In this document: piece after piece, positions 844 to 61,130 of the stretch | Layout: every line of letters starts with the position of its first letter | How positions within the stretch are numbered: position 1 is the first letter of the stretch | Origin: Acidobacteriota bacterium | GTDB lineage: Bacteria; Acidobacteriota; Thermoanaerobaculia; Thermoanaerobaculales; Sulfomarinibacteraceae | Length of the DNA stretch: 64,000 bases | Assembly: GCA_022340665.1 (NCBI GenBank) | Contig: JAJDNM010000012.1 | Span: forward strand, 1-64,000 | Direction of reading: 5' to 3' | Translations under genes and position numbers: made by a program | The notes under the pieces: model-generated | What the model was told of the DNA's origin: nothing | The model's input: the letters and a program-made list of their open reading frames with translations, nothing else | Database searches by the model: none

Positions 844-875
844 ACCGCATCCTGATTCCGTATGGGGAGCCCCGA

Positions 876-976
876 GTGTTGAGTTTTGAGTTACGAGTTT
901 TGAGTTCCGATCCTCCCCCGGAGGTGTTTTGGGTGTGTGGGGGTAACTCGAACCTCAAATCTGAAAACTCAAAACT
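876..976. repeat. Word-array inverted repeat (GAGTTTTGAGTT / AACTCAAAACT)
   Basis: The left arm (876-907) repeats GAGTT/TTGAG words, the middle (912-942) is C-rich then G-rich (CCTCCCCCGG, then GTGTGGGGG), and the right arm (944-976) carries the reverse-complement words AACTC and AAAACTC. It fills the space between divergent xerD and the moxR operon. Confidence 0.7.
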
Positions 977-2046: not shown

Positions 2047-2166
2047 GGAGGAATGAGGAATGAGGAATGAGGAATTAGGAATTCCCGCCCGCTCCCCCGG
2101 TTTTCGTGAAACTCTTCGGGTGGGTGGGGGATCATTCCTCATTCCTCATTCCTAACTCCTCATTCA
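2047..2166. repeat. Word-array inverted repeat (GAATGAGG / CCTCATTC) with C/G core
   Basis: The left arm (2047-2083) is four to five copies of AATGAGG/ATTAGGA. The core begins CCCGCCCGCTCCCCC (2084-2098) and ends GGGTGGGTGGGGG (2118-2130). The right arm (2132-2166) repeats ATTCCTC. It starts four bases after the moxR stop and ends just before the next gene's ATG at 2174, leaving that gene without a recognisable Shine-Dalgarno sequence. Confidence 0.8.
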
Positions 2167-10676: not shown

Positions 10677-10699
10677 GCTTGCGCCCTCCCTCCCTCCCG

Positions 10700-10796
10700 A
10701 TTCTGGATGCTGGATTCTGGATGCTGGATCCGCCTGACCACCTCGCAAGCGGCATCGGTGTACGGACATCCAGGATCGAGCATCGAGTATCCAGCA
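10700..10796. repeat. GGATGCT-word inverted repeat
   Basis: The left arm (10700-10731) has three copies of CTGGATNCTGGAT. The core begins CCGCCTGACCACC. The right arm (10766-10796) carries ATCCAG, GAGCATCGAG and TATCCAGCA. It lies 20 bases upstream of the TTG start of the symporter gene. Confidence 0.7.
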
Positions 10797-26635: not shown

Positions 26636-26819
26636 TCCAGATTCCAATGATGGTGTGACCTTCCGCTGCCGGCTGTGGCGGTGCTCACGCCGGACCACGG
26701 TTAGGTTTCACAGCCCTGAGAGCCTATCATGTGATCTCGCGGGTTTTCAGGGGTTTCAACCTGTGGAATAAAACTGCGTCGCAATTTCAGTGGATTCGAT
26801 TTCTTGTCGGCTGGGCATC

Positions 26820-28030: not shown

Positions 28031-28066
28031 CTTCGAAACGTTCGAACGTTCAACGTTCTAACGTTT
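28031..28066. repeat. AACGTT-word array
   Basis: Four AACGTT words, mostly joined by two to four bases (AACGTTCGAACGTTCAACGTT...). The stop codon of arsM (CTA on the plus strand, 28058-28060) lies between the last two words. No second inverted arm is seen. Confidence 0.65.
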
Positions 28067-31120: not shown

Positions 31121-32710
31121 ATGCGCCATATCTGGGTTTTCGCTCTCGTCTCTGTTTTGTCTTTCATCATTCCCGCCGTTTCGGCAGAAGAAACCGTCGA
31201 TCTCGATGCCGTCACGAAGATCCGAGACCAGGGTTTTCGCCACTCGAAGGTCATGGATTATGCGTGGCACCTGACCGAGGGAGTCGGTCCGCGACTCACC
31301 GGGACGCCTCAGGAACTCGAGGCCCATGAGTGGGCCAAGGGTGCGTTCGCCGAGTTGGGGATGGATGCCTGGGTCGAGGACTATGACTTCGGTCGTGGCT
31401 GGGTCGTGGATCGGGTTCAGGTTCGGATGACGAGCCCTTACATCCAGCCCCTCGAGGCCTTGCCCCAGGCGTGGACTCCGGGAACCGATGGAACGGTCCG
31501 TGGGCAAGTGGTCCGCGCAACCCTCGAATCCGAGGAGGATCTCGAGAAATGGACCGGCAAGCTGGCGGGCAAAATCGTGCTGCTGGAAGATGCCGCCGAA
31601 CCGAAGCAAATCGATTCCCAGCTCTTCAAGCGCTGGAATGACGAGGGACTCGAGGAGCTTTCGAAGTACGACATTCCGAGCGAGCGGCGGAGCCAATGGC
31701 GCAAGCGGATGCTCAAGCGGTTCACGTTCTGGAAGAGGTATGCGACGTTCCTCGAAGACGAGGGCGTGGTGGCGACCATCGAGCCGAGCTCCCGCGACAA
31801 CGGTCTGGTCCGGGTTACCGGAAACAGGTCCAATCGCGAGAGCGAGAGACCGCTCGGGGTCGCCGGACTGGTGATGACGACCGAACATTACAACCGTCTT
31901 ATTCGGATGCTGGATCGGGAAATCGAGCCGGAGATCGAGATCGACGTCGAGGTGCGTTGGTTCGAGGAGCCCGGCAAGGCATACAACACAATCGCCGAGC
32001 TGGGCGGTTCGGACCTCGCCGGCGAAACCGTGATGGTCGGCGGCCACCTCGACTCCTGGCACTCCGGCACCGGCGCCACCGACAACGGAGGCAACTGCGC
32101 GGTGGTCATGGAAGCACTGCGGATCCTCAAGGATGCGGGACTCCAACCGCGTCGAACGATCCGTGTCGGATTGTGGAGCGGCGAGGAACAGGGTTATCTC
32201 GGTTCGAGGGAGTACATCGAGCGCCACCTCGCCACGCGACCCGAGCATACCGACCCCGAACAGCTCGCTCTGCCAGAGTTCGCCCGCGAGCAGACGTGGC
32301 CCATCCAACCGACGGCTGAGCATGCCAAAGTTTCGGCGTATTTCAACATCGACAACGGCGGTGGCCGGATTCGGGGCATCTACGCCCAGGAGAACGCCGG
32401 CGTCGTGCCGATCTTCAGGGCCTGGCTCGAGCCGTTCGCAGACGTTGGAGCGGACACAGTGACGATGGAGAACACCGGCGGGACCGATCACCAGCCGTTC
32501 GATTGGGTTGGCATCCCGGGCTTTCAATTCATCCAGGACGGCATGGACTACATGGGTCGTACGCACCACTCGAACGTCGACACCTACGATCATCTCGATG
32601 GGGATGACCTGAAGCAGTCTGCAGTGGTGCTCGCCTCATTCCTCTGGCACGCGGCCAACCGCGACGAGCTGCTCCCGCGCAAACCGATGCCGACCAAGCC
32701 CGAAGAGTGA
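31121..32710 (+). CDS. Secreted M28 family zinc aminopeptidase/carboxypeptidase
   Basis: A 529-residue exported peptidase. It has a signal peptide (residues 1-22, ending AVSAEE), a PA-like insert domain (about residues 115-270, with KIVLLEDAAEPKQ) and an M28 domain. Zinc ligands are His and Asp in GGHLDSWHSGTGATDNGG, the catalytic Glu pair in WSGEEQGYLGS, Asp in FNIDNGGG and His in GRTHHSNVDTYDHL. It resembles the glutamate carboxypeptidase-like/peptidase Q group. It probably degrades external peptides together with the S41 enzyme. Its stop codon TGA is the first part of a GAATTC-word array. Confidence 0.92.
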   Translation: MRHIWVFALVSVLSFIIPAVSAEETVDLDAVTKIRDQGFRHSKVMDYAWHLTEGVGPRLTGTPQELEAHEWAKGAFAELGMDAWVEDYDFGRGWVVDRVQVRMTSPYIQPLEALPQAWTPGTDGTVRGQVVRATLESEEDLEKWTGKLAGKIVLLEDAAEPKQIDSQLFKRWNDEGLEELSKYDIPSERRSQWRKRMLKRFTFWKRYATFLEDEGVVATIEPSSRDNGLVRVTGNRSNRESERPLGVAGLVMTTEHYNRLIRMLDREIEPEIEIDVEVRWFEEPGKAYNTIAELGGSDLAGETVMVGGHLDSWHSGTGATDNGGNCAVVMEALRILKDAGLQPRRTIRVGLWSGEEQGYLGSREYIERHLATRPEHTDPEQLALPEFAREQTWPIQPTAEHAKVSAYFNIDNGGGRIRGIYAQENAGVVPIFRAWLEPFADVGADTVTMENTGGTDHQPFDWVGIPGFQFIQDGMDYMGRTHHSNVDTYDHLDGDDLKQSAVVLASFLWHAANRDELLPRKPMPTKPEE

Positions 32711-32817
32711 ATTCGGAATTCTGAAATAGGAATTCTGAATTCCCACCCACCCTCTCCCCGACCCGGAAGGTGGGGGGAGGGCGAGATTCAGAATTCCGAA
32801 CTCCGAATTCCCAATTC
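32708..32817. repeat. GAATTC-word inverted repeat with C/G core between convergent genes
   Basis: The left arm (32708-32742) reads TGAATTCGGAATTCTGAAAT... with three GAATTC-type words. The core is CCCACCCACCCTCTCCCC then GGTGGGGGGAGGGCG. The right arm (32785-32817) reads ATTCAGAATTCCGAA... with three words. A long stable hairpin is expected; the position between two stops suits a bidirectional terminator. Confidence 0.8.
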
Positions 32818-33698: not shown

Positions 33699-33792
33699 GA
33701 ATGAGGAAGCAGGAGTCTGGCAATCGGGAATCCCACTCCTCCTCATCCAACCTGAGGGGTGGGAGATCCAAAATTCGAAATTCGAAATTCAG
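33699..33792. repeat. Mixed-word array at the 3' end of the DUF4097 gene
   Basis: The left arm (33699-33735) has GAATGAGG/AGGAGTCTGG/GGGAATCCC words. The core is CCACTCCTCCTCATCC then GAGGGGTGGGAG. The right arm (33769-33792) is three copies of AAATTCG. The words of the two arms differ. The DUF4097 stop (33789-33791) is inside the right arm. Confidence 0.55.
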
Positions 33793-36724: not shown

Positions 36725-36766
36725 GATGCCTCCAAGGAGTCCGTGTCGGCGTCCAGAGTAGAACGA

Positions 36767-36880
36767 TACTGGATGCTAGATGCTTGATGCTGGATCCGCC
36801 CACCCCCTTGTGAGATCTTTGAAAGGAACTGCTTTCTCATGTATCGAGTATCCAGCATCGAGCATCCAGCATCCAGAATC
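36767..36880. repeat. GGATGCT-word inverted repeat
   Basis: The left arm (36767-36797) has three CTGGATGCT-type words. The core starts CCGCCCACCCCC. The right arm (36841-36880) has TATCCAGCATCGAGCATCC and AGCATCCAG words. It separates divergent pyk and the GYD gene. Confidence 0.75.
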
Positions 36881-36962
36881 CCGACGAGTTTTCGCCACTG
36901 AAGTGTGCATCACGACGACCAAGGTATTATCTTTGAAACGAAAACCGAACAGGAGGTGCCCG

Positions 36963-37289: not shown

Positions 37290-37328
37290 GAACGTTTAAA
37301 CGTTCGAACGTTTCAAGGTTGAACGTTA
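37290..37328. repeat. AACGTT-word array between convergent genes
   Basis: AACGTTTAAACGTTCGAACGTTTCAAGGTTGAACGTTAA. The final TTAA provides the parC stop codon (37326-37328). AACGTT is self-complementary, so the whole array is close to palindromic. Confidence 0.65.
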
Positions 37329-39326
37329 ATCCTCGAACGGCAACGCGACGTCCTCGCCGTCCATTGCCGGCCGTGATTCTCCGCTGTTCGAGCCATTTCC
37401 GCCGTTGCCTCCGTTGTCGCCGTTCCTGATCCGTCTGACCTTGGAAGCTGGTTTGGACGCGAGGCGCCGTCCCCGGGCCGAGACGCCGGTTGGCTCGAGG
37501 ATCGACAGGTCGAACTCCGCCTCGTGCACCCGCTGTCTCTTCTTGGGCACGAAGGTCACATGGATGACGTCATTGCAGTCGCCCGGGATCAGATAATCGA
37601 CGCGGCCACTCTTGCCCTTGATGAGCTCGTACTCGCGATCGCGAATGAATGCCTTGATGTGGATCTTCTTGCCCCAGGCGATCTTGTCTTTGTCGCGGTA
37701 CACGACGGTGAAGGGCGCGCCCTGCTCCTGGTCGAAAACCTCGGCGTGGATGGCCTTGTCCGGGATCAGCACCTTGTCATCGGGGCCGATAATCCGGAAC
37801 GACCCGTCGCGGCTGACAATCAGGATGCGGTCATACTCGCTGACCGTGAACTGATACTTGGAGCCCTTGACCGCCGAGCCGAAGAAGCCGGTGTCCGGGT
37901 CGTACGAAACCTTTATGTTCTGGCGCGCAACCGCCCGCACGTCAACCGCCTGGAATGTCCCGATCTCCGATTGCCTGGGATAGAGCTCGCCGTAGGTCTC
38001 CAGCAGGTGCTCCAGGTAGACGATGGTGGTCGGTGTGAGCTTGCGGAGCTTGGCGCGGACACCCTTGATGGCCTTGACCGTGGTCTTGAGGTCCTTTCGG
38101 TTCCTGTCGATGTCGTACCGGGAGATTCGCCGGATCTGGATCTTGAGAAGTCCGTCGATGTCCTCGTCGGTGACCTCGCGCTCAAGCTCCTCGAGGTGGG
38201 GCTCGAGACCCGTGCGGACAGCTGACACGACTCCTTTCGCAGTCTTGGCTTTTTCGATCCTTTTGTAGACCCGGTTCTCGATGAATATCCGTTCGAGGTC
38301 GAGCCAGTGCTTGCGGTCGCCGAGCTGATCGAGCTCGTACTGGAGCTCGGCCTTGATCAGGCCGCGCAGCTGGTCGGTGAGATAGCAGAGGACTTCGGAA
38401 ACCCCCATTTCGACGGGCTGCCGATCCTTGATCATCACCATGTTGGAAGTCAGTGAGATCTCGCAGTCGGTGTGGGCGTAGAGCTGGGGAATGACTTCGT
38501 CCGCGTAGACACCGCGCGGCAGTTCGACTTCGATTTCGACCTCGTCAGTGGTGAAGTCGTTGATCCCGCTGATCTTGACCTTGCCCTTCTGCGCGGCGGA
38601 CTCGATCGACGCGATCAGGCTCTCGGTTGTGGTGCCGAAGGCGATCTCGCGGATCACGACCGTCTTCTTGTCGCGCTTGTTGACCCGTGCCCGCACCTTG
38701 ATCTTGCCGACACCGTCGTCGTAGTCGCCGGTGTCGATGATCCCGCCGGTCGGGAAATCGGGATAGATTTCGAACGGCTCGTTCTTGAGGATCCTTATCT
38801 GCGCCTCGAGCAGCTCGCAGAAGTTGTGCGGGAGGATGCGGGTGGACATGCCGACCGCGATGCCCTCGGCACCGAGCATCAGCAACACCGGCAGTTTGGC
38901 GGGAAGCGCCACCGGTTCCTCATTGCGTCCGTCGTAGCTCGGGCGGTACTCGGTCAGAGCCTTGCGGAAGAGCGTTTCCTTGGCGAGATCGGTGAGCCGG
39001 CACTCGATGTAGCGCGGTGCTGCCGGCGAGTGCCCGGTCACCGGATTGCCGAAGTTCCCCTGTTTTTCGATGAAGTAATCCTTGTTCGCGAGCACGACAA
39101 GCGCGTCGCCGATCGAGGCATCTCCGTGGGGGTGGAGCTTCATGGTGTCACCGATGACGTTGGCGACCTTGTGGAACTTGCCGTCATCCATCTTCGAAAG
39201 GGTGGCAAGGATGCGGCGTTGAACAGGCTTCAGCCCGTCACGGATATCAGGAATCGCACGATCGACGATCACGTAGCTCGCGTACTCGATGAAGTTCTGG
39301 CCCATCAGTGGGGCGATGCGTGTCAT
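37326..39326 (-). CDS. parC: Topoisomerase IV subunit A (short type)
   Basis: Type IIA topoisomerase cutting subunit, 666 residues, shorter than Escherichia coli ParC and with the layout known from Bacteroidetes-type enzymes. The active-site Tyr is Tyr106 (SPAAPRYIECRL). The region equivalent to the quinolone pocket reads HPHGDASIGDAL, with Ala70 where sensitive gyrases have Ser. A coiled-coil gate lies around residues 330-450. The C-terminal domain is degenerate and ends in a Gly/Asn-rich tail (NGGNGGNGSN). Its partner gene parE is immediately upstream. No gyrA/gyrB is in the window. Confidence 0.92.
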   Translation of the reverse strand: MTRIAPLMGQNFIEYASYVIVDRAIPDIRDGLKPVQRRILATLSKMDDGKFHKVANVIGDTMKLHPHGDASIGDALVVLANKDYFIEKQGNFGNPVTGHSPAAPRYIECRLTDLAKETLFRKALTEYRPSYDGRNEEPVALPAKLPVLLMLGAEGIAVGMSTRILPHNFCELLEAQIRILKNEPFEIYPDFPTGGIIDTGDYDDGVGKIKVRARVNKRDKKTVVIREIAFGTTTESLIASIESAAQKGKVKISGINDFTTDEVEIEVELPRGVYADEVIPQLYAHTDCEISLTSNMVMIKDRQPVEMGVSEVLCYLTDQLRGLIKAELQYELDQLGDRKHWLDLERIFIENRVYKRIEKAKTAKGVVSAVRTGLEPHLEELEREVTDEDIDGLLKIQIRRISRYDIDRNRKDLKTTVKAIKGVRAKLRKLTPTTIVYLEHLLETYGELYPRQSEIGTFQAVDVRAVARQNIKVSYDPDTGFFGSAVKGSKYQFTVSEYDRILIVSRDGSFRIIGPDDKVLIPDKAIHAEVFDQEQGAPFTVVYRDKDKIAWGKKIHIKAFIRDREYELIKGKSGRVDYLIPGDCNDVIHVTFVPKKRQRVHEAEFDLSILEPTGVSARGRRLASKPASKVRRIRNGDNGGNGGNGSNSGESRPAMDGEDVALPFED

Positions 39327-39398: not shown

Positions 39399-39502
39399 CG
39401 AATTCGGAATTCGGAGTTAGGAATTAGGAATTCCCGAACTTCCCCCCGGCAGTACCCCACATCATTCTGAAACTCAAAACTCAAGACTCAAAACTCTCAA
39501 CT
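39399..39502. repeat. Mixed-word inverted array (GAATTCGG/ATTAGGA left, AAAACTC right)
   Basis: The left arm (39399-39433) combines GAATTCGG with ATTAGGA words. The core is CCCGAACTTCCCCCC. The right arm (39465-39502) consists of ACTCAAA repeats, a different word from the left arm. It lies between parE and parC, which read in the same direction. Confidence 0.7.
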
Positions 39503-39509
39503 TGCGACG

Positions 39510-41333
39510 TCACGCGATGTCCGCGATGAGGTTGTCGATAATGTACTCCTTACGGGCCGGAGTGTTCTTGCCCATGAAGAAGTCGAGCGCCCGCTTGACG
39601 TCGCCCAACGAGCCGGTCGTGACCCGCTTCATGTGGTCGTCGTCGGCGATGAACTGCTTGAACTCCGCAGGGGAGATCTCGCCGAGTCCCTTGAAGCGCG
39701 TAATCTCGTGATTGCGCAAGCGCTCGGCGGCCTCGTCTCGCTCGGCCTCGGAAAAGCAGTAAACGGTTTCCTGTTTGTTGCGCACCCGGAAGATCGGGGT
39801 CTCGAGGATGAAGACGTGGCCGGTGAAAACCAGCTCTTCGAAAAAGCGCAGGAAGTAGGTGAGCAGCAAGTTGCGGATGTGCATCCCGTCGACGTCCGCG
39901 TCGGTGGCGATGACCACTTTGTTGTAGCGCAGGCCCTCCATGTCCTCTTCGACACCGAGCGCCCGCATGATGTTGTAGAGCTCCTCGTTCTTGTAGACCG
40001 CCTCACGGCCGAGACCGTGGGTGTTGAGGGGCTTGCCTTTGAGCGAGTAGATGGCCTGGGTCTGAACGTCCCGGGCCTGGATCATGGCGCCGCCGGCCGA
40101 GTCGCCCTCGGTGAGGAAGATCGTCGTCTCCTCACGCCGGTCGCCCTTGACGTCCGAAAGGTGAACCTTGCAGTCGATCAGCTTGGGGATGCGGATTGCG
40201 ACCTTCTTCGCCCGCTCCTTCGCCTCCTTCTTGATTGCCGACAGCTCCTTGCGCACTCTCTGGTTGTTCTTGACCTTCTCGAGAAGCTTTTCGGCCTCCT
40301 TGGGCTCCTTGTGGAGCCACAGAACCACCTGGTCCTTCACCGAGTTGACAATCCAGGAACGGATCTCGGTCGAACCGAGCTTGTTCTTGGTTTGGGACTC
40401 GAAGACCGGGTCCTGAATCTTGACCGCCACCGCACCAACCAGGCCGTCACGCACGTCTTCACCCGCGAAGCCGTTCTTGGCGAACTCGTTGACGCCCTTC
40501 AGCACGCCCTCACGAAATGCGCTCTGGTGGGTACCGCCGTCTTTGGTGTACTGGCCGTTGACGAAGCTGAAATATGTCTCTCCGTAGGCGTGGGTGTGAG
40601 TGAAGGCGAACTCGAGCCGGTCGAGCTTGCAGTGGAAGGCGTCGTAGACGGTCGGCTCGCCGCCGAGTTCGTAGGCCAGGAGGTCGGCGAGGCCGTTCTT
40701 CGACACATATTTTTCGCCGTTGTAGTCGAGGGTCAGGCCGCTGTTGAGAAAGGCGTAATAGCGGAGGCGATGCTCGAGATACTCCTCCTGCCAACCGTAG
40801 TCCTCGAATATCTCGGGATCGGGGATGAAGCGGATGAAGGTGCCGTTTCTCTCCTTGGCCTTCGAGCCGCCCTTCTCCTCCTTCTTCCTGCCCTTGCTGA
40901 AGAGGCCGCGCTTGAACTTGCCGTCGCGATAGCTGATGACCTCGAAATCGGACGACAGGGCGTTGACCGCCTTGTTGCCGACTCCGTTGAGTCCGACCGA
41001 GAACTGGAACACATCGTCGTTGTACTTGCCGCCGGTGTTGATCTTGGAGACACAGTCGATGACTTTGCCGAGTGGAATTCCACGGCCGTAGTCACGCACC
41101 GACACCTCGGGGCCATGGCGCTTGATGATGATGCGCTTACCGTGGCCCATGATGAACTCGTCAACGGCGTTGTCGATGACCTCCTTGAGCATCACGTAGA
41201 TGCCGTCGGCCGGGTTCGATCCGTCGCCGATGCGGCCGATGTACATACCGGTGCGTAGCCGGATGTGCTCGAGAGCGTCCAGGGTCTGGATGGTCTTCTC
41301 GTCGTAAATGATTTCCTGTTTGGAATTCGCCAT
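39510..41333 (-). CDS. parE: Topoisomerase IV subunit B
   Basis: ATPase subunit of topoisomerase IV, 607 residues. The GHKL ATP site includes EVIDNAVDEF (about residues 50-59), RDYGRGIP and VGLNGVGNKAVNAL; the transducer and TOPRIM domain follow with FLTEGDSAGG and TDADVDGMHIR. It contains an unusual lysine-rich insertion (KGRKKEEKGGSKAKER, about residues 150-165). A promoter lies at 41365-41393. It forms a transcription unit with parC, interrupted by a word array. Confidence 0.93.
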   Translation of the reverse strand: MANSKQEIIYDEKTIQTLDALEHIRLRTGMYIGRIGDGSNPADGIYVMLKEVIDNAVDEFIMGHGKRIIIKRHGPEVSVRDYGRGIPLGKVIDCVSKINTGGKYNDDVFQFSVGLNGVGNKAVNALSSDFEVISYRDGKFKRGLFSKGRKKEEKGGSKAKERNGTFIRFIPDPEIFEDYGWQEEYLEHRLRYYAFLNSGLTLDYNGEKYVSKNGLADLLAYELGGEPTVYDAFHCKLDRLEFAFTHTHAYGETYFSFVNGQYTKDGGTHQSAFREGVLKGVNEFAKNGFAGEDVRDGLVGAVAVKIQDPVFESQTKNKLGSTEIRSWIVNSVKDQVVLWLHKEPKEAEKLLEKVKNNQRVRKELSAIKKEAKERAKKVAIRIPKLIDCKVHLSDVKGDRREETTIFLTEGDSAGGAMIQARDVQTQAIYSLKGKPLNTHGLGREAVYKNEELYNIMRALGVEEDMEGLRYNKVVIATDADVDGMHIRNLLLTYFLRFFEELVFTGHVFILETPIFRVRNKQETVYCFSEAERDEAAERLRNHEITRFKGLGEISPAEFKQFIADDDHMKRVTTGSLGDVKRALDFFMGKNTPARKEYIIDNLIADIA

Positions 41334-42582: not shown

Positions 42583-42700
42583 TGGATCCTCGATGCTGGA
42601 TGCTCGATGCTGGATCCGCCCATCCACCCGTGTTGACCCGATATGGCGAGTCAACTCGAACGATCGAGTATCGAGAAACGAGAATCGAGGATCAAGAACC
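42583..42700. repeat. GGATGCT/CGAGTATC-word inverted repeat
   Basis: The left arm (42583-42618) has GGATCCTCGATGCTGGATGCT-type words. The core is CCGCCCATCCACCCG. The right arm (42663-42700) has ATCGAGTATCGAGAAACGAG-type words. It sits between convergent genes. Confidence 0.75.
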
Positions 42701-42716
42701 GATGTTCGCGAAGCTC

Positions 42717-47442: not shown

Positions 47443-47452
47443 GCTTTGTTGA

Positions 47453-47480
47453 ATTAGGAATTAGGAATTAGGAATTAGGA
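47453..47480. repeat. Four perfect tandem copies of ATTAGGA
   Basis: A pure 7-base tandem repeat with no inverted partner. It covers and precedes the -35 position of the NnrU gene and follows the 3' end of the GT-C gene by about 16 bases. Confidence 0.85.
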
Positions 47481-47495
47481 ATGGAAGAAATCGCT

Positions 47496-50147: not shown

Positions 50148-50172
50148 TGATGCTCACGGTAGGAAAGGTTCT

Positions 50173-50203
50173 CACGTTCAAACGCCGAAACGTTCCAACG
50201 TTG
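50173..50203. repeat. Degenerate AACGTT-word array
   Basis: CACGTTCAAACGCC then GAAACGTTCCAACGTTGG, between the epmA start and the efp stop (50210-50212). Weaker than the other AACGTT arrays. Confidence 0.4.
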
Positions 50204-50209
50204 GTTCCG

Positions 50210-51845: not shown

Positions 51846-51898
51846 CGTTCGAACGTTGCAACGTCGAACGTTCAAACGTCAAACGTTAGGCGTTCAAA
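51846..51898. repeat. AACGTT-word array between convergent genes
   Basis: CGTTCGAACGTTGCAACGTC then GAACGTTCAAACGTCAAACG. Six to seven words in 53 bases. It starts three bases after the epmB stop and includes the stop codon of the amidinohydrolase (51894-51896). Confidence 0.7.
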
Positions 51899-54083: not shown

Positions 54084-54161
54084 AAACACCGCAGCCTCTA
54101 ATTGGAAATTGAGAATCAGAAAGTCGAAGGGCCACCCACTCGTGACGCGCGATGGTGAGGA

Positions 54162-54203
54162 GAGTTCAGAATTCCGAATTCAGAATTCCGAAATCCGAAT
54201 TCA
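54162..54203. repeat. GAATTC-word array containing the sufT stop
   Basis: AGTTCAGAATTCCGAATTCA then GAATTCCGAAATCCGAATTCA: four near-copies of an eight-base word. The final TCA is the sufT stop codon on the minus strand. A weak opposite part with CCACCC and AATTG words lies at 54095-54137. Confidence 0.65.
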
Positions 54204-54524: not shown

Positions 54525-54653
54525 GAATTAGGAATTAGGAATTAGGAATGAGGAATTAGGAATGCCGCCCACAAACCCGAGACGATGGCGGGGAGTCACG
54601 ACGCCCGAAGGGCGTCCGTAATTCCTAATGCCTAACTCCTCATTCCTCATTCT
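54525..54653. repeat. ATTAGGA/AATGAGG-word inverted repeat containing the sufU stop
   Basis: The left arm (54525-54563) has five ATTAGGA/AATGAGG words. The core is GCCGCCCACAAACCC with an inner GACGCCCGAAGGGCGTC hairpin (54599-54615). The right arm (54618-54653) has ATTCCTA, ATGCCTA, ACTCCTC and ATTCCTC. The sufU stop (54647-54649) is inside the right arm. Confidence 0.8.
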
Positions 54654-60293: not shown

Positions 60294-61046
60294 ATGTCCC
60301 CCATGAAGATTCACCTTTCACGTTGGGTCTGCACTGATGTCGAATCGAATCTGAACCGTTTTCGAGAAGAGGCTGTTGGAGCGGCAACGGGCGGCGCAGA
60401 AATCGTCGTCTTTCCCGAGCTCTTCCTGACGGGGTATTCGCGGCCGCTCGATCCGCAGAAGGCGAGGGAGGTGTTCGAGGAGATTTCGAATGCAGTGCCG
60501 GGTGCGCTGTTCGTCTTCGGGTCAATCAGCGAGGCCCGGCATAATCGGGTCACGGTGTGGACGCGAGGGTCCCAGCTCGCCTTCTACGACAAGGTTCATC
60601 TCTTTCAGCCCAACGGCGAGGACGAGCTGTGGGAAGTTGGCGGCAGCTACGTGGCGTTCGAGTGGCGGGATCTTCGCATCGGTTTGATGAACTGCAACGA
60701 CATCCGTTTTCCGGAACAGGCGCGCGCGCTCAAGCTCGGGGCGCTTTGCGATGCGCTCATCGTGCCGGCCTGGTGGCCGTGGCGGCGCGACCACATCTGG
60801 AGCACTCTGTTGCAGGCGAGGGCGGCCGAGAACCAGCTCTGGGTACTCGGCTGTTGTATCGCCGGATCGATCGGGGGGGGCGAGTTCGCCGGGGCGGGCA
60901 ATCACGTCTTCGATCCGTCGGGCGAACCGGTCCGCACCGCCGACGACCGGACCTACGAGCTCGACTTCGAAAACCCACCACCCACCGTCGTCGATCCCAT
61001 TGAGCGCTACGTCGAAATCGATCGCGTCGAAATAGTTAAGAATTAG
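60294..61046 (+). CDS. Carbon-nitrogen hydrolase (nitrilase superfamily)
   Basis: A 250-residue amidase of the nitrilase superfamily. The catalytic triad is Glu42 (FPELFLTGY), Lys100 (YDKVHLFQP) and Cys134 (GLMNCNDIRFPEQAR). It has no extra domains; the substrate is probably a small amide or omega-amide. The start is ATG 60294, but ATG 60303 is as likely. The stop TAG (61044-61046) is part of the next word array. Confidence 0.88.
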   Translation: MSPMKIHLSRWVCTDVESNLNRFREEAVGAATGGAEIVVFPELFLTGYSRPLDPQKAREVFEEISNAVPGALFVFGSISEARHNRVTVWTRGSQLAFYDKVHLFQPNGEDELWEVGGSYVAFEWRDLRIGLMNCNDIRFPEQARALKLGALCDALIVPAWWPWRRDHIWSTLLQARAAENQLWVLGCCIAGSIGGGEFAGAGNHVFDPSGEPVRTADDRTYELDFENPPPTVVDPIERYVEIDRVEIVKN

Positions 61047-61130
61047 GAGTTTAGAGTTGAGAGATCCCGCCCGCCCCTCACAAGGCGGCGGGTGGGCGGG
61101 GGATAACTCTCAACTCTCAATTCTCAATTT
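61040..61130. repeat. Mixed ATTAGGA/GAGTT-word inverted repeat with C/G core
   Basis: The left arm (61040-61063) is GAATTAGGAGTTTAGAGTTG; the core is ATCCCGCCCGCCCCTC then GGCGGGTGGGCGGGGGAT; the right arm (61105-61130) repeats AACTCTC. It lies between convergent genes and would form a very stable hairpin. Confidence 0.8.

Follow-up and report, generated by a model that had tools for sequence, protein, structure and literature searches.

Introduction

Intergenic 7-bp repeats are found in several phyla and are without an accepted explanation. Among the described systems, the paired GGGAATC arrays of Xanthomonas are the closest kind to the elements reported here, followed by REPINs/BIMEs and by the cyanobacterial STRR and the TAACTGA repeats. 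The Xanthomonas GGGAATC or (GGGANTN)n arrays are intergenic, and each genome has some 70-75 pairs of them in convergent orientation (Rehm et al., 2015; PMC4692102). They lie 28 nt from the 5' neighbouring gene and 160 nt from the next, and are scarcer between divergent genes (PMC4692102).

The elements analysed here, hundreds of short sequences able to form hairpins in a genus of uncultured Acidobacteriota, lie in the window, a stretch of 64,000 nucleotides, and elsewhere in the same genome and its congeners. Judged by the published description only (PMC4692102), they resemble the Xanthomonas arrays in being convergent pairs of purine-rich 7-bp arrays that are intergenic and placed just behind genes. 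Xanthomonas uses one word, however, whereas several interchangeable words are used here; its G runs lie in the words, which can themselves form a G-quadruplex, and not in a core; and no separate period-4 core, mixed arms or stacking is reported there. REPINs and BIMEs (PMC3116915, PMC2817692) are likewise high-copy intergenic inverted doublets with hairpins, occurring with singlets and composites, proximal to stop codons and in genome-specific families, but the arms are tandem 7-bp arrays here and no RAYT gene is flanked by elements. A scan that was not exhaustive found no GTAG/CGTC REP tag in the unit consensus, the aligned cores or the junctions. The STRR/LTRR heptamers of Calothrix and Nostoc are also intergenic tandem 7-bp words with several classes per genome, although inverted repeats come from few pairs in Nostoc and a shared CCCN core is not reported there. 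TAACTGA repeats of Beggiatoaceae, Cyanobacteria and Bacteroidetes are abundant intergenic heptamer arrays too (MacGregor, 2015; PMC4679880), but they are direct, built from a single word and placed before start codons, whereas the arrays here stand behind stop codons. In the open-access literature we found no description, for any of these known relatives, of a core with its own period of 4, of words that can be exchanged or of modules that are stacked, and searches there for the exact words gave two chance matches to one word, none relevant.

We propose, at a probability of about 0.5, that the elements belong to a single class of palindromic intergenic sequences, specific to the genus, that their half-units turn over at the core and that they have a role as 3'-end hairpins. 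By analogy, the best reading is of REPIN/BIME-like or Xanthomonas-GGGAATC-like doublets that would act as bidirectional 3'-end hairpins. Four congeners, compared at the same gaps, show replacement of the sequence with no change in position, geometry, phase or core. The constrained part, a C/G-tipped hairpin behind a gene, can thus be separated from the unconstrained part, the words. Which process writes heptamer repeats thereby becomes a testable question within one genus.

Genomes and array classification

The window lies on contig C12 of a Thermoanaerobaculales MAG (G000; 3.95 Mb, 153 contigs), of which 753 kb, or 19% of the genome, was sampled; 90% of this sequence is coding. Judged by the topoisomerase B subunit, the named genomes closest to it are Thermoanaerobaculales (Acidobacteriota) MAGs in public assemblies. 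The comparison set consisted of contigs from four genomes of the same genus (G001-G004), which are species-level relatives rather than strains and are about 25% divergent in coding DNA; all five are MAG assemblies, those of the congeners less complete. Gene boundaries were taken from a home-made caller. Arrays were classed by their best match to a word list picked after inspection of the data, both in fine classes and in superclasses A (GGAATTN-type), B (TGAGTTT), C (CGAATTT-type) and D (GATGCTG). The periodicity of half-cores was judged against composition-preserving shuffles.

Element anatomy

Exact-lag matching over the 753 kb of G000 returned 197 arrays with a period of 7; of the other lags between 4 and 30, multiples of 7 excluded, none gave more than 13. 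By the gene calls in this genome, 276 of 313 arrays (88%) are intergenic. Most arrays are built from GGAATTA/GGAATGA, GGAATTC, TGAATTC/T, TGAGTTT, AGAGTTG, CGAATTT/CGGATTT or TGGATGC/TCGATGC, and single substitutions connect these words to one another. Merging of 116 adjacent array pairs gave 100 elements in the sampled sequence, and 80 inverted pairs have cores of 24-62 bp, present in high copy, intergenic and with a spacer between the units. The usual layout is a word array, TTCCCACCCACCCTCCC, a loop (often GGTTCTC), GGGAGGGTGGGTGGAA and a complementary word array. Those of the window are listed in Table 1. All the sequences quoted in an earlier note on this DNA were found, two of them (CCGCCCACCCCC and CCGCCCATCCACCC) 1-2 bp from where it had placed them.

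Table 1. Elements and neighbouring genes in the window (positions in nucleotides)
Feature	Position	Strand	Remarks
TGAGTTT/TGAGTTT element, concordant	874-976	.	
GAATGAG/GAATTAG element, concordant	2048-2165	.	core CCCGCCCGCTCCCCC / GGGTGGGTGGGGG; genes end at 2043 and start at 2174
Class D (GATGCTG) element	10699-10794	.	
GAATTCT/GAATTCG element	32708-32817	.	canonical CCCACCCACCCTCTCC core
Mixed element	33699-33792	.	left arm degenerate GAATGAG-type; right arm AAATTCG (class C) at 33771-33790
Class D (GATGCTG) element	36765-36884	.	core CCGCCCACCCCC at 36796-36807
DNA topoisomerase IV subunit A	37326-39326	-	NF007209 above cut-off; gene downstream
Focal element, left arm	39400-39432	+	GAATTCG then GAATTAG words, class A, running into the core
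Focal element, core	39433-39469	.	CCCGAACTTCCCCCC ... loop; G half badly decayed, without GGGTGGG, unlike most copies
Focal element, right arm	39470-39502	-	class B words, ACTCAAA (TGAGTTT in the opposite strand)
Type IIA topoisomerase B subunit	39510-41333	-	gyrB/parE-like, below curated cut-offs; stop codon adjoins focal element
Class D (GATGCTG) element	42583-42702	.	core CCGCCCATCCACCC at 42616-42629
Lone half-unit, partnerless GAATTAG array	47451-47482	+	shorter at the same site in G001
Right arm of decayed element	54161-54202	-	GAATTCAG/GAATTCCG; GAATTAG words in the same gap of G003
GAATTAG element, concordant	54525-54652	.	G003 has the same words and a different core
Weakly mixed element	61036-61129	.	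left GAATTAG/GAGTTTA-GAGTTGA, right CTCAACT; perfect CCCGCCCGCCCC / GGGTGGGCGGGGG core

The core of all word classes is (CCCN)n-loop-(GGGN)n. Two periods stand side by side, the arms repeating every 7 bp and the core every 4. In G000, the half-core z value at lag 4 against shuffles was 12.7, 6.9, 4.3 and 5.2 for superclasses A, B, C and D taken separately; in each class the non-C positions repeat at lags 4 and 8 far over shuffles, and the half-cores of the congeners have period 4 again (z = 9.0). When each class was scored with a position matrix built from the remaining ones, half-cores exceeded shuffles by 6 s.d. in A, 3 s.d. in C and 2.4 s.d. in D, and without clear excess in B. The claim of the earlier note that different words share the same core is thus borne out by a period of 4 in all four superclasses and in the congeners. 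Random G/C-rich sequence would align less well than these cores do, class B being unclear with the matrix, and the first refuting condition of that note is thereby answered. Polarity is nearly invariant: the C core lies 3' of the word in 163 arrays and the G core in one, the word phase is fixed relative to the core, and the unit consensus is (NGRRTNN)n + (CCCN)n with the purine strand directed inward. The G runs are located in the core and not in words such as GGAATTA, GGAATTC, TGAGTTT and CGAATTT. A canonical four-run G-quadruplex is present in only 11 of 100 elements, and G-quadruplex formation was for that reason discarded as the defining feature.

Class D shares the core motif and geometry of the others while having its own conserved interior (TCAACAAATCGATAWATCGTC..GCTGAATTGTCAAGGGG). 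Its members are dispersed 150-200 bp repeats (e.g. L025 15554-15755) whose homologous copies are 74-87% identical, and neither a parent transposon nor a target duplication was identified for them; from its sequence, class D looks like a separate MITE-like subfamily. The earlier proposal of one element type in place of seven unrelated repeats accordingly holds for core, phase, polarity, the words joined by single substitutions and the sites kept while words change, and has to be narrowed with regard to class D.

The arm/core junction GRRTTCCCRCCCRCCC occurs 33 times in G000 and 1-10 times in each of G001-G004. None of 296 further genomes from the phylum has it more than three times, and other genera of the family have it at most once; it is essentially confined to one genus. 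Rfam covariance models gave no match in the window.

Mixed arms and word turnover between species

Arms of one element frequently differ. In G000, 39 of 95 arm pairs differ when scored by fine class and 25 of 95 when superclasses are used; most class C arms have a partner from another class, and many A/B, A/C and B/C combinations were found. Agreement is nonetheless far above expectation in this genome (56 of 95 pairs vs 16 expected), while in the small sample from the congeners 17 of 28 pairs differ and the 11 that agree, against 8.0 expected, are not a significant excess. The element at 39399-39502, as described in the earlier note, is mixed, and so is that at 33699-33792; the third example given there, at 61040-61130, is so only weakly, GAATTAG plus TAGAGTT facing CTCAACT.

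Comparison with the congeners dates the mixture at the focal site. The orthologous gap of G004 has the same pair (GGAATTC/GGAATTA left, TGAGTTT right) with the same left boundary, and that of G002 has TGAATTT/TGAATTC. Because the mixed arms are common to G000 and G004, they are old and not a chance juxtaposition, and two separate elements inserted next to each other, the condition under which the earlier reading would have failed, are rejected for the focal case. Mixed elements also have one shared core that folds (core-only z of -2.3), which argues against the side-by-side reading. At the 50148-50209 gap, all four congeners have TGAGTTT on the left, combined on the right with CGAATTT (G003, G004), GGAATTC (G001) or a composite (G002); G000 differs there and has a GAACGTT palindrome. 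Arms can thus differ stably, and a change in one arm need not be accompanied by a change in its partner. The L025 4344-4470 gap presents another pattern, with TGAGTTT (G000), GGAATTA (G003), GGAATTC (G001) or TGAATTT (G002) in both arms each time; at this gap the two arms have changed together.

Word use is species-specific, TGAATTT and GGAATTA standing at 11:1 in G002 and 0:17 in G003 (p = 3e-7). Different species keep elements in the same gaps (21/6/18/31, odds ratio 6.0, p = 8e-4, with congeners that are not fully independent).

Other repeats occupy some of the same places. At several G004 sites, including the topoisomerase gap (L226, G004:C132) and L303 (G004:C68), a hairpin repeat of ~115 bp, GCGCCCTGCGGGCGC ... 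GCGGCCACCCGCTCGC ... GACGGGAGCGG, lies inside TGAGTTT arrays and is apparently a separate mobile repeat targeting word arrays. A GGCAGCCGGGACGGCTGCCCCACAA ... TTGTGGGGCAGGCGTCTCGCCTGCC hairpin is nested in the C/G core of heptamer elements at L224 (G003:C311) and L219 (G002:C354), in gaps orthologous to window 50148 and 39327. In G001-G003, gaps orthologous to window 43836, 28011 and 19852 and to L042 18940 have other hairpin families (AACCACAGAGACACAGAG, CCGCAAAGACGCGAAG, TATCGCTATCGC) instead of heptamer elements, sometimes beside GGGTGGGTGGGC.

How arms may be replaced

Some elements contain same-orientation stacks, in which an outer array and a C core are followed by an inner array, a second C core and the loop; at L025 13246, G002 has three left modules stacked in this way. 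Across three genomes, stacks of A and C words have the GGAATTN-type outside and the CGAATTT-type inside in 12 of 13 cases and the reverse in one (p = 0.003). At L025 3584, G003 has A arms on both sides whereas G000 has A-C on one side and A on the other, with the extra C module at the core. These stacks and the L025 3584 comparison suggest that half-units are added at the core and that outer arms are lost later; stacked modules would be concrete intermediates for the replacement of one word family by another.

The mechanism we propose takes the element as a doublet of half-units, each consisting of a 7-bp word array and a (CCCN)n half-core, inverted and joined tip to tip; its core and arms can form a hairpin or cruciform. 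The currently active family would contribute a further half-unit or doublet, which would enter an existing element at its C/G core; the old arm would later be lost, and slippage would then fix the length of the array. Mixed arms would be steps on the way, and the outcome would be an old site with new arms that agree. RAYT mobilisation was considered and rejected: Y1 (RAYT-like) transposase genes are present in four of the five genomes, and their flanks are without elements except for incidental arrays. As congeners are ~25% apart in coding DNA, no sufficiently clean empty site was available for detecting a target duplication.

Ectopic recombination or gene conversion among dispersed elements at the shared C/G core, without transposition, is improbable as the whole account and still a serious rival, and may also act. 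Core and flanking phase are common to all classes, so that crossovers there would swap arms while keeping the geometry, and the many A/B, A/C and B/C combinations fit such exchange. It leaves unexplained the same-side stacking with its directional order (A outer, C inner, 12:1) and the new elements at empty gaps.

The earlier note suggested that arms are rewritten by slippage or templated copying. Copying in place, in which template switching within the hairpin would let one arm serve to correct the other, would account for the concordance of arm classes in G000 (56 of 95 vs 16) and for the L025 4344-4470 gap, where both arms switched together in each of four species. We regard it as unlikely, since own arms in G000 match each other no more closely than permuted arms of the same class (17.6 vs 18.4), the two halves of a core pair no better than permuted halves do (7.3 vs 7.5 matches), and mixed states last across species at the 39399 and 50148 gaps. 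Own-arm complementarity, looked for as a sign of compensatory change, was absent on the same comparison. On these sequences, addition and loss of modules is favoured over arm-to-arm templated copying.

The other half of that suggestion fares better, in that array length, highly variable between elements, is plausibly set by slippage. As a complete explanation, neutral slippage with low-complexity drift, in which a polymerase slips in 7-nt steps at stop-proximal hairpins and no modules disperse, has little probability. Such 7-nt steps were proposed by Mrazek and co-workers, as cited in PMC4679880. A period of 7 whatever the word, the variable array length and the words one substitution apart are what slippage would produce; yet a few identical words come back at dozens of unrelated loci with their phase fixed to a constant core, and slippage is unable to spread a core. 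The intergenic bias by itself could be purifying selection. We give similarly little weight to a new mobile or repeat-writing system that is no REP relative, in which the (CCCN)n/(GGGN)n core would be the landing or priming site for dedicated machinery installing 7-bp arrays as cassette arms with words of each lineage's own.

Position behind genes and proposed function

Elements are placed with respect to gene ends. Between co-directional genes they start at a median of 7 bp past the stop codon and leave 37 bp up to the following start, being nearer the stop in 47 of 56 cases (p = 3e-7). In convergent gaps both element ends lie ~8 bp from stops, and in divergent gaps ~50 bp from starts; among gaps of at least 90 bp, an element is present in 25 of 49 convergent vs 16 of 67 divergent ones (p = 0.003). 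Altogether 27% of gene ends with a spacer carry an element. Terminator-like hairpins with a T tract occur at 2 of 91 element-bearing ends vs 31 of 247 element-free ends (p = 0.003), a difference to which lack of room may contribute. The elements themselves have no T tract of a rho-independent terminator after the hairpin, words such as AATTCCT coming after the core. Words are not biased between the stop side and the start side (p = 0.86), and an asymmetry oriented by transcription was rejected on this result.

The median folding z is -5.9 for concordant and -2.9 for mixed elements, whereas the cores alone fold better in mixed than in concordant elements. Since mixed arms pair weakly and concordance in the relatives is not significant, pairing of the arms seems not to be strictly needed. 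Position, folding and the exclusion of terminators fit a 3'-end hairpin that works in both directions and is not constrained in its letters. The elements would act as RNA hairpins in both directions at transcript 3' ends, in termination or in 3'-end protection, and selection would preserve a hairpin at the site and not its letters. Such a function is suggested by these sequence features. The least probable alternative, DNA-level binding sites for proteins or G-quadruplexes (in nucleoid structure, supercoiling or replication) that are stop-proximal only through insertion tolerance, agrees with the strand symmetry of the element, the lack of stop-side/start-side word bias and the enrichment of GGGNGGGNGGG (42 of 84 occurrences inside elements, which make up 1.6% of the sequence), but canonical four-run motifs are present in only 11 of 100 elements, and insertion tolerance alone does not predict terminator exclusion.

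In other genera of the family, the topoisomerase gap has unrelated hairpins, word pairs or no gap at all, which suggests that a hairpin is retained across genera while its sequence is unrelated. In these genera (L055, L056, L057, L058, L061) the gap contains perfect hairpins that are not built of repeats, GTCCGC words of 6 bp, or GCTGTCA/GCTATCA words. Palindromic GAACGTT/AACGTTC words at 7/8-bp spacing likewise stand at gene ends in the window (28037-28065, 37290-37327, 51849-51887), and a G003 copy, in the gap orthologous to 26636-26819, has a GGGTGGTTGGGTGG core.
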